From NCBI RefSeq assembly GCF_027923555.1, contig NZ_AP025523.1, positions 62,001 through 126,000 of the forward strand: a stretch of 64,000 nucleotides of DNA. Reading direction: 5' to 3'. The notes beneath the pieces are model-generated. The model was not told the DNA's origin, made no database searches, and was given only the letters and a program-made list of their open reading frames with translations. Positions within the stretch are counted from its first letter, which is position 1, and each line of letters starts with the position of its first letter. The position numbers and the translations under genes are program-made. Positions 24,219-30,923 of the stretch are shown one piece after another. The DNA is from Vulcanimicrobium alpinum. Lineage in GTDB: Bacteria > Vulcanimicrobiota > Vulcanimicrobiia > Vulcanimicrobiales > Vulcanimicrobiaceae.

Positions 24219-27200
24219 TCAGTGGAAATTCCGCGCGCGGACCTTCTCCGTTGTGCCGTAGGCGTCGAGGGTCCAGCAGCGCTTCATGATGACGTCGATG
24301 CAGCCTTGTTCTTTTTGGAGCGTGCCTTCGACGATCAGGCACTGCGAGCTGCGGATCGTGCGGCGGTAGCGCTCGTAGACGTCGGGACGGACGATCACGT
24401 TGGCCAGGCCCGTCTCGTCCTCGATGGTGAGGAAGACGAAGCCTTTGGCGGTGCCCGGGCGCTGGCGGGTGATGACGAGCCCGCCGATCTTGCAGACCAG
24501 GTTCTTCGGCATCGACGGGAGGCGGCTTGCGGCTAGGACGTTCTGCGTGTCGAGGAACGACCGCACGTGCGCGATCGGCTGGACGTCGCTCACGCCTGTG
24601 GCGTGGATGTCGAGCGTGGTCGTCTCGACGGCGGTGAGCGCGGAAAACGCGGCCCGCGGTTCGTCCTCGATCTCCATCGAACGTCCGAGTTCGCCGCGCG
24701 CTTCGCGCTCGTCGAGGCCGCGCAGCGCCCACATCGCCTCGCGGCGGGTCGCGAACCACGGCGCGAATGCGCCCGCCGCGGCGAGGTTCTCCATCGCGTC
24801 GCGTTCGAGCCCGGTGCGGCGCGCGAAGTCGATCAGATCGACGAACTCGCCGTCGCCGCCGAGCGCGCGTTCGAGCCGCTCGCGCTGCGCGTCGCCCATC
24901 CCGCGCACGAGGTGAAACCCCAGCCGCAGCGCGCCGTCGTCGTCGACGAAGCTCCACCACTCGCTCTCGTTCACCGCGACCGGCTTCACGACGACGTCGT
25001 GCCGGCGCGCGTCGTTGACCAGCACTTCGGTCGAGTAGAACCCCATCGGCTGGACGTTGAGGATCGCGGCGCAGAAGATCGCCGGCTCGTGACACTTCAC
25101 GTACGCCGACGCGTACGCGAGCAGGGCGAACGACGCGGCGTGCGACTCGGGAAAGCCGTAGTCGGCGAACCCCTCGAGCATGTGGAAGAGCTGATCGGCG
25201 GCGGCGCGGTCGATCCCGTTGGCGACCATCCCCTCGACCAGACGCGGATAGATCTGCGCCATCCGCTCGCGCGAACGCTTGTGGCCCATTGCGCGGCGTA
25301 ATTGATCCGCCTCGCCCGCGGAGAAACCCGCCGCTTCCATCGCCATGCGCATCCCCTGCTCTTGGAACAGCGGCACGCCGAGCGTCCGTTCGAGGATCGG
25401 CTTGAGTTTCGGATGCGGATACGTCACCGGCTCCTGACCGTTGCGCCGGCGCAGGAACGGATGGATCATGTCGCCCTGGATCGGTCCGGGCCGGATGATC
25501 GCCACCTGCATCACCAGGTCGTAGAACCGCTGCGGCTTCAAGCGCGGCAGCATCGACTGCTGCGCGCGCGACTCGACTTGGAAGACGCCGATCGAATCGG
25601 CGCGCTGCAGCATCCGGTACGTCGGCGCGTCGTCGGCGGGGATCGCCTCGAGCGAGATCGGCGCGCGCTGCGGATAGCGCCGCCGGTAGAGTGCGAACGC
25701 GTCGCGCAGCAGCGAGAGCATGCCCAAGCCCAGCAAGTCGATCTTGATCAAGCCGAGATCGGAGAGATCGTCCTTGTCCCATTGCACGATCGTGCGGTCG
25801 CGCATCGTCGCCCACTCGACCGGTGCAACTTCCACCAGCGGCGAGCGGGTGACGACCATCCCGCCGCTGTGAATCCCCATGTGGCGCGGAAAGCCGTCCA
25901 TCCGCCGGCACAGCACCATCATCAGCGTGCCCAACTCGCCGCCGACCGGACCGCGCAACTGCGCGTCGGGATCGGGGCCGAAGTCTTTCGCCGCGAATCC
26001 GTAGAGGTGCGAGGGATGCGCCTTCACCTTCGAGCCGTGAGCGTGCTGCGGGTCGGTGCGGTTCGCCGGCGCGCGCTGCGGTGAGGGCGCCGTGGCCGCT
26101 TCATCCGCATCCTGAAAGCCGGGCGTGACCGTGCGGCCCGGCGTCGCCGCCGGAACGTCGTCGCCGCGCGAGGGCACGACGTTGGAGCCGGCGTCGAAGT
26201 CGCGCCGTTTCGCGACCGAGCTCGGGAGCGGCGCGTAGTCGACGTGTTCGGCGCCGAGCGCGCCCGAGAGCGATTCGCGCGCGTCGTACTCGCGCACGAT
26301 CTGATCGATCTGGCCGAGCCCCAGGCCGAGCGCTTTGCCGACGTCGCGGATCGCCGAGCGCGTTCGGTAGGTGATCACTTCGGCCGCCATCGCCGCGTGC
26401 TCGCGGTCGTACCGTTCGTAGACGTACTGGATCACCTTCTCGCGATCCTGATGCGCGAAGTCGATGTCGATGTCGGGGACCTCGCCGCGCTCTTCGGAGA
26501 GAAAACGTTCGAAGAGCAGTTCGCCCGCGATCGGATCGACCGCGGTGATCTCCAGCGCATAGCACACCGCGGAGTTCGCCGCCGAGCCGCGGCCCTGCGC
26601 GAGGACGCCGAGTTCCTTCGCGGCGCGCGCGATGTCCCACACCACTAGAAAGTAGCCGGCCAGATCCATCCGCGCGATGATCCCCAGCTCGTACTCGAGC
26701 TGGCGCTCCACCTTCGGATCGAGCGGCCACGCGTAGCGCCCGCGCGCGCCGCGATAGACCAGCGTGCGCAGGTACGACTGCGGCGACGTCTCGTTCTCGG
26801 GGATCGGGAAGAGCGGAAATTCGCCGGCGAGTTTCTGCAGGCGGAACTCGCAGCGTTCGACGATCGTGATCGTGTTGCGCAGCGCGAGCGGAAACTCGTC
26901 GAACAGCCGCGCCATCTGCGCCGGTGTCTTGAGATGGTATTCGTGATTGGGACGCAGGAGCGTCCCCGCGGTCTGCAGCGACGCGCCGAACTTCACGCAC
27001 GCCAGCACGTCGGAGAGCAGGCCGTCGTCGCGGTTCGCGTACGCGACGCCGTTGGTCGCTACGTACGGAACGTCGAGCCGGAGCCCCAGCCGCACCAGCG
27101 CGCGGATCAGCGCGGGGTCTTCGGGACGCACGTGGTGCTGCAATTCGAGATAGAACCGGCCGGGGAAGAGATCGCGCAGCCGCGCGCCCAGCGCCGTCGC

Positions 27201-27692
27201 GGCGTCGCCGTCGCGCCGCAGCAGCGCTTTCTCGATCACGCCGTTGCGGCCGCCGGAGAGCGCGACCAGTCCGGCGGTTCGGCCGTCGAGATCCTCGAGC
27301 CGCAGCCGCGCGTCGCGCTTGCGCCCGCGCAACTGGGCCGTCGAGATCAGCCGCGCGAGGTTGGCGTAGCCGGCTTTGTCGGCGGCGATCAGGACGAGCC
27401 GCGGGCTGTCGGTGGGGACCTCCTTCGAGGGCCGCGCCGGGCGGCTGGGGCGGATCGGATCGGCGTCGTCGGTCTCGAGCGTCAGCTCCGCGCCGCACAG
27501 CGCCGCCAGGCGCGTACCGGCGGCGGCTTTCGCGAAGCGGACCGCGCCGTAGAGGCCGTCGCGGTCGGTCAGCGCGACCCCCCGCAGTCCCAGCGCCGTC
27601 CCGTGCGCGACCAGCTCCTCGGGGTGCGACGCCCCTTCGAGGAAGCTGAAGTTCGACCAGCAGTGGAGCTCGGCGTATTCCGGGAGGGCCAT
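24219..27692 (-). CDS. dnaE2: Error-prone DNA polymerase DnaE2 (ImuC)
   Basis: The start at ATG 27692 (MALPEYAELHCWSNFSFLEGASHPEEL) is typical of DnaE2; another ATG at 27707 would crowd the LexA box. The roughly 1157-residue protein has the PHP domain, the C-family polymerase core with catalytic acidic motif PDIDIDFAHQDREKV, and C-terminal helix-hairpin-helix and OB regions. DnaE2 is the polymerase of the ImuA-ImuB-DnaE2 translesion mutasome. An Ala/Pro/Asp-rich insert of about 100 residues (about 480-585) lengthens the palm region compared with most family members. A LexA box 18 bases upstream predicts DNA-damage induction. Confidence 0.94.
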   Translation of the reverse strand: MALPEYAELHCWSNFSFLEGASHPEELVAHGTALGLRGVALTDRDGLYGAVRFAKAAAGTRLAALCGAELTLETDDADPIRPSRPARPSKEVPTDSPRLVLIAADKAGYANLARLISTAQLRGRKRDARLRLEDLDGRTAGLVALSGGRNGVIEKALLRRDGDAATALGARLRDLFPGRFYLELQHHVRPEDPALIRALVRLGLRLDVPYVATNGVAYANRDDGLLSDVLACVKFGASLQTAGTLLRPNHEYHLKTPAQMARLFDEFPLALRNTITIVERCEFRLQKLAGEFPLFPIPENETSPQSYLRTLVYRGARGRYAWPLDPKVERQLEYELGIIARMDLAGYFLVVWDIARAAKELGVLAQGRGSAANSAVCYALEITAVDPIAGELLFERFLSEERGEVPDIDIDFAHQDREKVIQYVYERYDREHAAMAAEVITYRTRSAIRDVGKALGLGLGQIDQIVREYDARESLSGALGAEHVDYAPLPSSVAKRRDFDAGSNVVPSRGDDVPAATPGRTVTPGFQDADEAATAPSPQRAPANRTDPQHAHGSKVKAHPSHLYGFAAKDFGPDPDAQLRGPVGGELGTLMMVLCRRMDGFPRHMGIHSGGMVVTRSPLVEVAPVEWATMRDRTIVQWDKDDLSDLGLIKIDLLGLGMLSLLRDAFALYRRRYPQRAPISLEAIPADDAPTYRMLQRADSIGVFQVESRAQQSMLPRLKPQRFYDLVMQVAIIRPGPIQGDMIHPFLRRRNGQEPVTYPHPKLKPILERTLGVPLFQEQGMRMAMEAAGFSAGEADQLRRAMGHKRSRERMAQIYPRLVEGMVANGIDRAAADQLFHMLEGFADYGFPESHAASFALLAYASAYVKCHEPAIFCAAILNVQPMGFYSTEVLVNDARRHDVVVKPVAVNESEWWSFVDDDGALRLGFHLVRGMGDAQRERLERALGGDGEFVDLIDFARRTGLERDAMENLAAAGAFAPWFATRREAMWALRGLDEREARGELGRSMEIEDEPRAAFSALTAVETTTLDIHATGVSDVQPIAHVRSFLDTQNVLAASRLPSMPKNLVCKIGGLVITRQRPGTAKGFVFLTIEDETGLANVIVRPDVYERYRRTIRSSQCLIVEGTLQKEQGCIDVIMKRCWTLDAYGTTEKVRARNFH

Positions 27693-27709
27693 TGGGACCC
27701 CGAGCATAC

Positions 27710-28576: not shown

Positions 28577-28630
28577 GGCCTGCGGCGAGTTTTGAGATCG
28601 CGTTCAACTCACGATAAGCGAACCTTCACC

Positions 28631-29220
28631 GTGAGGGTTGCTCCATGGAGTCGACACACTGTCGCCCGAGGGGAACGCGCAGGAGTTGATCGACCACGAC
28701 GCGAGCCTCCTGCGCGCATCCTCGATGAAGCCGCGCACCGCAGATACGGCGACGAGGCCGTCGACGAGTTGACGCACGCGCTGCAGACCGCCCATTTCGC
28801 GCGCGCGGCCGGCGCCGACGACGAACTGATCCTCGCCGCGGCGCTGCACGACGTCGGGCGGCTGCCCTCGATCGCGCGGCGCGCCCGCACCTCGCTGCAC
28901 GAATACGTCGGCGGGGCGTTCGTCGCGGAGGCGATCTCGCCGCGCGCGGGGCGCATCGTCGCCGCGCACGTGCGGGCGAAGCGCTATCTGGTCGCGCTGG
29001 AGCCCGGCTATCGCGATGTGCTCAGCGACGCGTCGCGCGCGTGCCTCGACGCGCAAGGCGGTGCGCTCGATCCCGCGGGGACGCCTTCGAGCGCATGCCG
29101 TGGGCGCAGGACGCCGTCGCGCTGCGCCGCTGGGACGATGCGGCGAAGGTTCCGAACGGTGCGCAGATGGAGATCGACGACGTGCTGGCGGTCGACGCGC
29201 GCTTTCGTGGCCGCGCCTGA
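28631..29220 (+). pseudogene. HD-domain oxygenase-like (PhnZ-like) gene with a 3' frameshift
   Basis: The first part reads RRYGDEAVDELTHALQTAHFARAAG then LAAALHDVGRLPS and HVRAKRYLV. This matches the PhnZ-type mixed-valence diiron HD oxygenase pattern, including the Tyr-x-x-Glu (YGDE) before the HD motif. Near the G run at 29077-29080 the frame breaks. The sensible C-terminus (DAFERMPWAQDAVALRRWDDAAKVP) is in the next frame and ends at TGA 29218-29220. A single missing G explains it. The start is uncertain; GTG 28631 is the best in-frame candidate. Either decay or a homopolymer error. Confidence 0.6.
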
Positions 29221-30439
29221 ACTCATCGTCCGACCGGCGCGCTGGACCGACCGCGACGCAATCCTCCGGCTCACGCTCGCGATGGGCGGCCACGACGACG
29301 TCGCGCGCCGCGACGATCCGATGCGGCGGCTCGGCGCGGCACTGGGCCGCGCCGACACGCGCGTCGTCGTCGCCGAACGCGACGGCGCGATCGTCGGCTT
29401 CGCCGAAGTGCAGGCGCGCGTCTCGATGGTGGCGGACCGCTTCGAAGCGTGGCTCGGCGCGCTCGCCGTCGCGCCGCAGGCGCGGCGCGGCGGCGTCGGC
29501 GCGGCGCTGCTCGCCGCGGTCGAGCGCGAAGCGCGCCTGCTCGGCTGCGACGCGATCGTGCTCGAAAGCTCGGCCTGGCGCGACGATGCGTACGCGTTCT
29601 ATCGCCGCAGCGGGTTCGACGAACGCGCGCCGGCGGTGCGCTTCGCGCGCACGCTCTCCTCCGATGACGATGCCGCGCTCCTGCAGCGTTTTCTCGACGC
29701 GGCGGCGCGCGCGGCGAACGCCGTCGCGGCGGCAATCGCGGGACTCCGCGACGAAGCCTCCGTCGGTCAGGGTGCCGACGGCGCGCCGACCGAAGCCGCC
29801 GACGCCGCCGCGGAAGACGCCGCCCTGCGCGCCTTCGCGGCGCTGCCGTGCGCGATCGTCAGCGAAGAACGCGGCTTGATCGGCGCGCCGCCCGGCCCCG
29901 GCGACTGCTGGATCGCGCTCGATCCGCTCGACGGCAGCCGCAACTACCGCGCCGGCTACCCGCCGTACGCGATGGCGGCGGGTTTGGTGCGCGACGGCGT
30001 CGCGATCGCCGGCTACGTCGCCGACCTCACCTCGGGCCGCCGTTGGTGGGCCGCCGGCGGCGCGGCGTACGTCGACGGCCGGCCCGCGCACACGCGCCGA
30101 TCGCCGATCGCGGTCGTCCCGAGCCCCTCGTCGGGCGCGCCGCCGGCGCGCATCGCGATCCCCGGCGTTACGCGGATACGCGCCTCCGGAAGCACGGCGA
30201 TCGACCTCTGCCGGGTCGCCGACGGCTCGGCGGCCGCATTCGTCGCGCTGGATCGCGCGGTCGCGCACGCGCACGATCTTGCCGGCGCGATGGCGGTCAT
30301 CGTCGCGGCCGGCGGCTGCGTCCTCGAGGACGGCGGCCGGGTCCCGGTGCTGGCGCCCGACGCCGCGGCGCTGCACCGGATCGTCGCCGCGGCCGATCGC
30401 GAACTCGCGGAGGCGCTTACGACGGCGCCCGGTGGGTGA
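29207..30439 (+). CDS. Fusion of a GNAT acetyltransferase and an inositol-monophosphatase-like domain
   Basis: One uninterrupted frame of 410 residues. Residues about 1-150 are a GNAT domain (LIVRPARWTDRDAI, motif A ALAVAPQARRGGVGAALL, AYAFYRRSGF). Residues about 160-410 are an IMPase/FBPase-like domain: SEERGLIG supplies metal-binding Glu, DPLDGSRNYRAGYPPY is the signature, and HAHDLAGAMAVIVAAGG is the second motif. The domains would acetylate a small amine or protein and dephosphorylate a sugar phosphate, but no paired substrate is known. GTG 29207 overlaps the end of the HD gene by 14 bases. Confidence 0.82.
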   Translation: MAAPELIVRPARWTDRDAILRLTLAMGGHDDVARRDDPMRRLGAALGRADTRVVVAERDGAIVGFAEVQARVSMVADRFEAWLGALAVAPQARRGGVGAALLAAVEREARLLGCDAIVLESSAWRDDAYAFYRRSGFDERAPAVRFARTLSSDDDAALLQRFLDAAARAANAVAAAIAGLRDEASVGQGADGAPTEAADAAAEDAALRAFAALPCAIVSEERGLIGAPPGPGDCWIALDPLDGSRNYRAGYPPYAMAAGLVRDGVAIAGYVADLTSGRRWWAAGGAAYVDGRPAHTRRSPIAVVPSPSSGAPPARIAIPGVTRIRASGSTAIDLCRVADGSAAAFVALDRAVAHAHDLAGAMAVIVAAGGCVLEDGGRVPVLAPDAAALHRIVAAADRELAEALTTAPGG

Positions 30440-30506
30440 CGGCGGCGGCAAAAAAACTTTCGCGGACGCGTTAGTGCGGATGCGATTCCGGAGAGAAGTC
30501 GTGCAT

Positions 30507-30923
30507 ATGGGCGATTTCCGTACCCGGATCGCCGGTGATTATGCGTCGGTTGGTGCGGCGCGGCGTGCCTTGCGAAGCTATGCGCGGCTCTGCGGATTCA
30601 GCGGGGACCGTCTCGACGACATCGAGACCGCCGTCGGTGAAGCGCTGGCCAATGCGGCGGAGCACGGCAGTCGAGGGCGCGCGATCGACGTTTGCGCGTG
30701 GCTGAGCGACGACGTGCTGCACATCGAGATCGCCGACGCGGGGCCGGGTTTTCCGGCGTCGGCGCGTGCGCGCATGATTCGTCCGGCCCCGGCCGCGCCG
30801 CGCGGCTACGGCATTTTCCTGATTCACGCGCTCATAGACGACGTCGCCTACGTCGACGGCGGCCGGCGCCTGCTGCTCGGGAAACGCCTGCCGCGGGCCG
30901 ACGGGCGCGCCGAGCGCGCCTAA
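30507..30923 (+). CDS. RsbW-like ATP-binding anti-sigma/regulatory kinase
   Basis: The 138-residue protein is a stand-alone GHKL ATPase domain: N-box EAVGEALANAAEHG... (seen as ETAVGEALANAAEHG), G1 box IADAGPGF, and G2 box RGYGIFLIHALID. Such proteins act as anti-sigma factors or serine kinases in partner-switching systems. ATG 30507 has a purine-rich stretch (GGAGAGAAG) upstream. Its sigma or anti-anti-sigma partner is not adjacent; an SpoIIE-like gene lies at 60 kb. The 3' end overlaps the convergent small gene by 4 bases. Confidence 0.85.
   Translation: MGDFRTRIAGDYASVGAARRALRSYARLCGFSGDRLDDIETAVGEALANAAEHGSRGRAIDVCAWLSDDVLHIEIADAGPGFPASARARMIRPAPAAPRGYGIFLIHALIDDVAYVDGGRRLLLGKRLPRADGRAERA

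Follow-up and report, generated by a model that had tools for sequence, protein, structure and literature searches.

A GNAT acetyltransferase fused to an inositol monophosphatase-like enzyme in Vulcanimicrobium and its possible link to phosphonate use

We found that the window, i.e., the whole 64,000-nucleotide stretch of Vulcanimicrobium alpinus WC8-2 DNA analyzed here, encodes a protein in which a GNAT acetyltransferase is joined to an inositol monophosphatase (IMPase)-like phosphatase. With a probability of roughly 0.4, we read this fusion as a two-function enzyme that acts on small molecules in the phylum Eremiobacterota, linked to phosphonate utilization at least by origin. It would be a two-enzyme accessory, composed of a PhnO-like acetyltransferase and a phosphatase that perhaps replaces PhnN, and kept in the window organism without C-P lyase. 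Indeed, the gene context, with a Phn-HD neighbor in two genomes and a C-P lyase cluster in one, points to phosphonate utilization. This pathway includes both a GNAT step (PhnO) and a ribose 1,5-bisphosphate step.

RESULTS

Two intact domains in a single frame

The fusion gene lies at 29207–30439 on the forward strand and is a single frame of 410 codons, with a GTG start and a TGA stop, translated into 410 amino acids. Pfam recognized two domains: Acetyltransf_1 (PF00583) at residues 37–137, with 61.7 bits against a cut-off of 20.7 (E = 1e-16), and Inositol_P (PF00459) at residues 164–405, with 86.7 bits against a cut-off of 27 (E = 2.3e-24). The initial annotation had described a 410-codon frame carrying a GNAT and an IMPase domain and was right on this point: both Pfam domains are above their cut-offs, and the sequence carries the motifs IVSEERG, DPLDGSRN, and HAHDLAGA. 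We placed the GNAT domain at about residues 6–150 (29222–29656, forward strand), on the basis of PF00583 and of the predicted GNAT fold, and the IMPase/FBPase domain at about residues 157–405 (29675–30421, forward strand), on the basis of PF00459, the AlphaFold model, and VIA superposition.

In the GNAT half, the sequence RRGGVGA (residues 93–99; 29483–29503, forward strand) is what we take to be the acetyl-CoA pyrophosphate loop. In the IMPase half, three motifs encoded on the same strand are presumably the metal and catalytic ones: the metal motif IVSEE (residues 217–221; 29855–29869), in which SEE is invariant across the three fusions described below; DPLDGSRN (residues 239–246; 29921–29944), which reads DPLDGTRN or DPLDGSRN in all three; and HAHDLA (residues 354–359; 30266–30283), in which D357 is invariant in all three. 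The motifs of the IMPase superfamily (EE, DPxDG[ST]xN, and HDxA) are all intact in the window fusion.

SuhB is an IMPase-fold protein with a role beyond catalysis, reflected in PDB entries titled as SuhB-NusA or antitermination complexes. In the fusion, the IMPase or the GNAT half might likewise have lost its catalysis and act as a structural or regulatory domain. We consider this highly improbable, as all three fusions keep unbroken IMPase motifs and an unbroken acetyl-CoA loop in the GNAT.

The fusion gene has a G+C content of 77%, and a 615-codon antisense frame (28604–30451, reverse strand) runs over both this gene and the upstream HD gene; it is most likely a by-product of the G+C content. 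Downstream, an ORF at 30279–30923 overlaps the end of the fusion gene and encodes a histidine-kinase-like ATPase domain (PF13581), of a kind met in anti-sigma factors; no link between this ORF and the fusion was seen.

Predicted structure

The AlphaFold model of the fusion has a mean pLDDT of 81, lower in parts of the GNAT half. The initial annotation had proposed to check the linker by structure prediction: in the model, the first IMPase helix starts at residue 153, immediately after the GNAT-like half, with almost no linker in between. By VIA, the closest fit of the IMPase half is to the archaeal AF2372 (6b64_A), with a Z of 33.3 and an rmsd of 1.8 Å over 240 residues, at 33% identity. AF2372 and other archaeal IMPase structures rank first for a profile built from the three fusions.

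As the Foldseek and VIA matches listed for the whole model were IMPase-fold structures, the GNAT half was modeled by itself (pLDDT 74.9). Its best match was Ard1 (5c88_A; Z 18.9, rmsd 1.9 over 141 residues), and many GNATs matched at nearly equal Z (17–19); thus, the fold gives no substrate name for this half. The solved structures matched by the GNAT half include aminoglycoside and diamine acetyltransferases. No PhnO structure was among the PDB matches listed, which is uninformative either way.

Distribution and reality of the fusion

The rarity supposed in the initial annotation, which knew of no common architecture of this kind, was borne out: the full-length fusion, with its two intact motif sets, was found in three of the 149 genomes of the phylum, i.e., the window genome (G000), G090, and G022. 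The G090 protein is 56% identical to the window fusion over residues 6–403 and the G022 protein 52% identical over residues 4–404. Both alignments are colinear, in one frame, and unbroken through the domain junction. A hidden frameshift at 29660–29760, the doubt originally raised about the fusion, is excluded, because two relatives align in frame straight through this interval. The suspicion of a frameshift was misplaced for the fusion itself, and it held for its surroundings, since the HD gene has a broken frame some 130 bases upstream. This real break could suggest that an assembly or sequencing artifact joined two genes; the same in-frame fusion, at 52–56% identity in independent genomes, refutes this explanation, and we consider its probability negligible.

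In a tree of 61 sequences, the three fused IMPase halves are monophyletic (support 1.0), and in one of 15 sequences, the three fusion GNATs make up a clade together with the lone GNAT of a fourth genome, G076 (support 0.986). G076, apparently corresponding to the public contig JAFAMS010000512.1, carries the GNAT half only, at 54% identity. This stand-alone GNAT (L034/L050, positions 1246–1695) groups with the fused GNAT of the window inside the fusion clade and is perhaps the result of a loss of the IMPase half; no significant match to an IMPase remnant was found behind it in G076/L034. Many genomes of the phylum, that of the window included, also have separate IMPase-like matches.

No fusion was found in 398 genomes taken as Pseudomonadota on the basis of the label of record L039 (Acetobacteraceae), where up to four candidates per genome were scored; in these genomes, the matches listed at E 1e-16 or better were confined essentially to one domain. 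In the G151 phylum group, none of 324 genomes gave a match at E 1e-20, a result that shows little, as up to five candidates per genome were scored with no positive control. At E 1e-5, tblastn retrieved nothing from a collection of plasmids, which likewise shows little.

Among the public contigs listed as matches, one that carries the fusion (L033, JANYGA010000080.1, apparently that of G090) is labeled Rhodospirillales. The fusion genome groups in the window's own family, and the taxon label is probably wrong.

The upstream Phn-HD gene is broken in the window

Directly upstream of the fusion, within 28592–29220 on the forward strand, we found a gene for a Phn-HD/PhnZ-like phosphonate oxygenase, recognized by TIGR03276 and by similarity to PhnZ (4mlm), with its frame broken near 29074–29083. 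More precisely, positions 9–134 of TIGR03276 match 28715–29077 in the same frame as the fusion, and positions 135–173 match 29074–29190 in another frame, which stops at 29218–29220, 14 bases into the fusion gene. The overlap of the GTG start with the HD gene, as first described, is real in that it spans 14 bases, but it involves only the frame-shifted tail of the HD gene.

The window HD protein matches PhnZ 4mlm at E = 7.9e-19. Its HD motif and the Tyr and Glu of a Y-x-x-E motif, residues that we take as the signature of PhnZ-type oxygenases, align with those of PhnZ, in a gene that is broken here. The TIGR03276 cut-off of 214.6 bits was missed both by the window protein (112.4 bits, N-terminal part only) and by that of G022 (163.4–165.2 bits).

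The HD half is left open, by chance, in the frame of the fusion: no stop lies between them, and a 615-codon ORF spans 28592–30439. Annotation pipelines could mistake this ORF for a gene that fuses HD, GNAT, and IMPase.

The Phn-HD gene of G022 is intact and lies in a single frame, so that a programmed frameshift in the window HD gene is thought unlikely. The Vulcanimicrobium alpinus WC8-2 chromosome was assembled from Illumina and PacBio reads (PMC9758169); thus, the break is likelier a real mutation than a read error.

Phosphonate genes around the fusion

Strong Phn-HD matches were found in only two of the 149 genomes of the phylum, G022 (E = 1.1e-48) and the window genome (E = 3.5e-32), the next best match having an E of 4.2e-9. 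In both of them, the fusion directly follows Phn-HD. The G022 run consists of phnI, phnJ, a phnK-like gene, a gene for an ABC protein at the phnL position, phnM, Phn-HD, and the fusion. Here phnI (PF05861) is cut by the contig end, phnJ matches PF06007 at E = 5.5e-120, and the likely TTG start of the fusion overlaps the HD stop. The order after phnM in E. coli is phnN, which encodes ribose 1,5-bisphosphate phosphokinase, then phnO, which encodes a GNAT, and phnP.

PhnJ was found in G022 only, one of the 149 genomes, and the G022 cluster is the sole C-P lyase. Thus, the fusion is encoded in a run with phnI-J-K-L-M in one of the three fusion genomes, and the two others, the window genome and G090, where PhnJ was not found, are without C-P lyase. 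The PhnN and PhnP models gave no match at the cut-off level in G022, the window genome, or G090; for G022, which is 72% complete, this absence is weak evidence. In G090, no Phn-HD was found, and probes for PhnI, PhnJ, PhnK, PhnM, and HD found nothing on the 11.4-kb fusion contig. On this contig, the fusion adjoins two further GNAT genes, and enzymes of branched-chain amino-acid metabolism are also encoded (ketol-acid reductoisomerase, isopropylmalate synthase, and an aconitase-family gene).

A further neighbor, outside the enzyme itself, is a DNA polymerase III alpha (dnaE-type) gene at 24219–27707 on the reverse strand (PF07733 and PF17657), 47% identical to the gene of the same kind in the G022 locus (L048). 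In both genomes, no more than about 2 kb separates this gene from the cluster. It is found on the upstream side in the window and on the downstream side in G022, an arrangement that points to an ancient common location of the locus.

The initial annotation, made without this context, had guessed at an enzyme for an amino-sugar phosphate or at a protein-modifying enzyme. In the former case, both domains would act on one amino-sugar phosphate, by N-acetylation and dephosphorylation, in cell-wall or secondary metabolism. Relatives of IMPase hydrolyze sugar phosphates, which is coherent with this idea, as are the presence of two intact motif sets on one chain and the aminoglycoside and diamine acetyltransferases among the matched GNATs of solved structure. 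However, no amino-sugar gene was found among the neighbors tested in the three fusion genomes, and the identified neighbors in the window genome and G022 are phosphonate genes. We consider this explanation quite unlikely.

Membership of known families

The top-scoring NCBIfam model for the fusion was NF009321 (bifunctional FBPase/IMPase), although its equivalog cut-off of 264 bits was missed by both the window protein (113.1 bits) and the G022 protein (131.6 bits). The PhnO model, NF007530, has an equivalog cut-off of 142 bits and was missed as well (37.6 bits for the window and 29.3 for G022); for the window GNAT, its score was lower than those of the RimI and AAC(6')-Iz models. Aligned over 149 positions, the window GNAT half and E. 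coli PhnO share 31.5% identity. Furthermore, the three fusions are among the four best distinct matches of E. coli PhnO in the ORFs of 200 loci, a set partly chosen by similarity to the fusion and hence biased. E. coli PhnO falls outside the fusion-GNAT clade in the midpoint-rooted tree of 15 sequences (support 0.986). Despite the clear pairwise similarity, the missed cut-off and the tree do not support PhnO orthology of the fusion GNAT.

The IMPase half is nearest to dual FBPase/IMPase enzymes, as would be expected of a general FBPase/IMPase, acting on fructose 1,6-bisphosphate or inositol 1-phosphate, that gained a GNAT for regulation or detoxification and has phosphonate neighbors only incidentally. 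It is also coherent with this that the fusion is kept in two of three genomes without PhnJ, in G090 beside branched-chain amino-acid genes. Nevertheless, its rarity (3/149) is not what one would expect of a housekeeping enzyme. Separate IMPase-like matches occur in many genomes of the phylum, that of the window among them, and in both genomes where Phn-HD is strong, the fusion lies next to it. On balance, this explanation appears unlikely.

Survey of phosphonate regions in other genomes

We then surveyed 40 regions around phn or Phn-HD genes in genomes taken as Pseudomonadota: 20 came from 20 of the 83 genomes with PhnJ and 20 from 19 of the 38 genomes with Phn-HD. Most regions spanned about 20 kb, and four were shortened by contig ends (3.5, 10.7, 12.2, and 15.6 kb). 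The survey profiles detected a domain in 46/46 control loci, although these loci had been retrieved through their own similarity to the query or its profile. IMPase was found in none of the 40 regions and GNAT in two, at 2.3 and 7 kb from the HD gene and adjacent to it in neither. Thus, the survey did not provide an independent example of such an operon with the two parts as separate genes.

Divergent second copies of phnJ were observed at L161, L162, L163, and L164 (E from 2.4e-113 to 9.9e-119). These copies, in the genomes G225, G493, G221, and G348, are flanked by phnI, phnK, phnL-like, and phnM genes, and each of the four genomes also has a standard phnJ.

DISCUSSION

If the fusion is an accessory of phosphonate use, as we tentatively propose, its GNAT half, like PhnO, would acetylate aminoalkylphosphonates on their amino group, with acetyl-CoA as the donor. 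Acetylation would detoxify these compounds and make them ready for the cleavage of the C-P bond. FBPases take off a sugar 1-phosphate, and the IMPase half, as a putative Mg2+-dependent phosphatase of the FBPase/IMPase type, would remove phosphate from a sugar phosphate. The natural candidate substrate in G022 would be ribose 1,5-bisphosphate, converted to ribose 5-phosphate and Pi in place of the PhnN route to PRPP. In the window organism, the fusion may be the surviving part of the module, because phnJ is absent and Phn-HD is frame-broken; its role there would probably be aminophosphonate detoxification and sugar-phosphate hydrolysis.

Two papers describe C-P lyase operons without PhnN, PhnO, or PhnP, for which the replacements are only partly known (PMC10574752, PMC3463581). 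One of them records variant operons in which PhnN and PhnP have been replaced (PMC10574752). The other reports that PhnO acetylates aminophosphonates for their use and detoxification, and proposes PhnO as a detoxifying enzyme in Salmonella enterica, which lacks C-P lyase (PMC3463581). The persistence of the fusion without C-P lyase parallels the Salmonella case.

A more specific possibility is that the fusion replaces PhnO and PhnN with a single chain in a variant C-P lyase pathway, the GNAT acetylating the incoming aminophosphonate and the phosphatase turning ribose 1,5-bisphosphate into ribose 5-phosphate and Pi. We judge this unlikely; if true, phosphonate use would end in the pentose-phosphate pool and not in PRPP.

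Several observations speak against the phosphonate reading as a whole. Two of the three fusion genomes are without PhnJ, and one of these, G090, is also without Phn-HD. The GNAT lies outside the PhnO clade and below the PhnO cut-off. IMPase was found in 0/40 phn or Phn-HD regions, and the only C-P lyase cluster with a fusion comes from an incomplete genome.

In the literature collection searched, no paper brought together C-P lyase, phnO, and inositol monophosphatase, and the phrase "inositol monophosphatase" was absent from the GNAT-fusion papers among the matches listed. A conserved GNAT-phosphatase fusion at the place after phnM would be a concrete candidate for replacing PhnN, PhnO, or PhnP. 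More in general, the lineage-specific joining of two known enzyme families shows which activities a lineage kept together. As Vulcanimicrobium alpinus WC8-2 is cultured, the native host is available for work on the protein.

Comparison with known systems

The HD proteins of both the window and G022 match PhnZ/Phn-HD (TIGR03276), the window copy being frame-broken. The archaeal dual FBPase/IMPase AF2372 (PDB 1lbv and 6b64) has the DPLDG and EE motifs in common with the fusion; unlike the fusion, it has no GNAT domain. PhnN holds a place after phnM in E. coli, and we infer ribose 1,5-bisphosphate as the substrate common to PhnN and the fusion. The two are nevertheless unrelated, the BLAST match of PhnN to the IMPase half being only at chance level (E = 0.60). 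PhnN yields PRPP, whereas the fusion phosphatase would remove phosphate instead. Finally, E. coli PhnO (b4093) is also a GNAT of similar length (144 amino acids), encoded after phnM as the fusion is in G022. PhnO stands alone, whereas the fusion GNAT is placed outside the PhnO clade and is joined to an IMPase.
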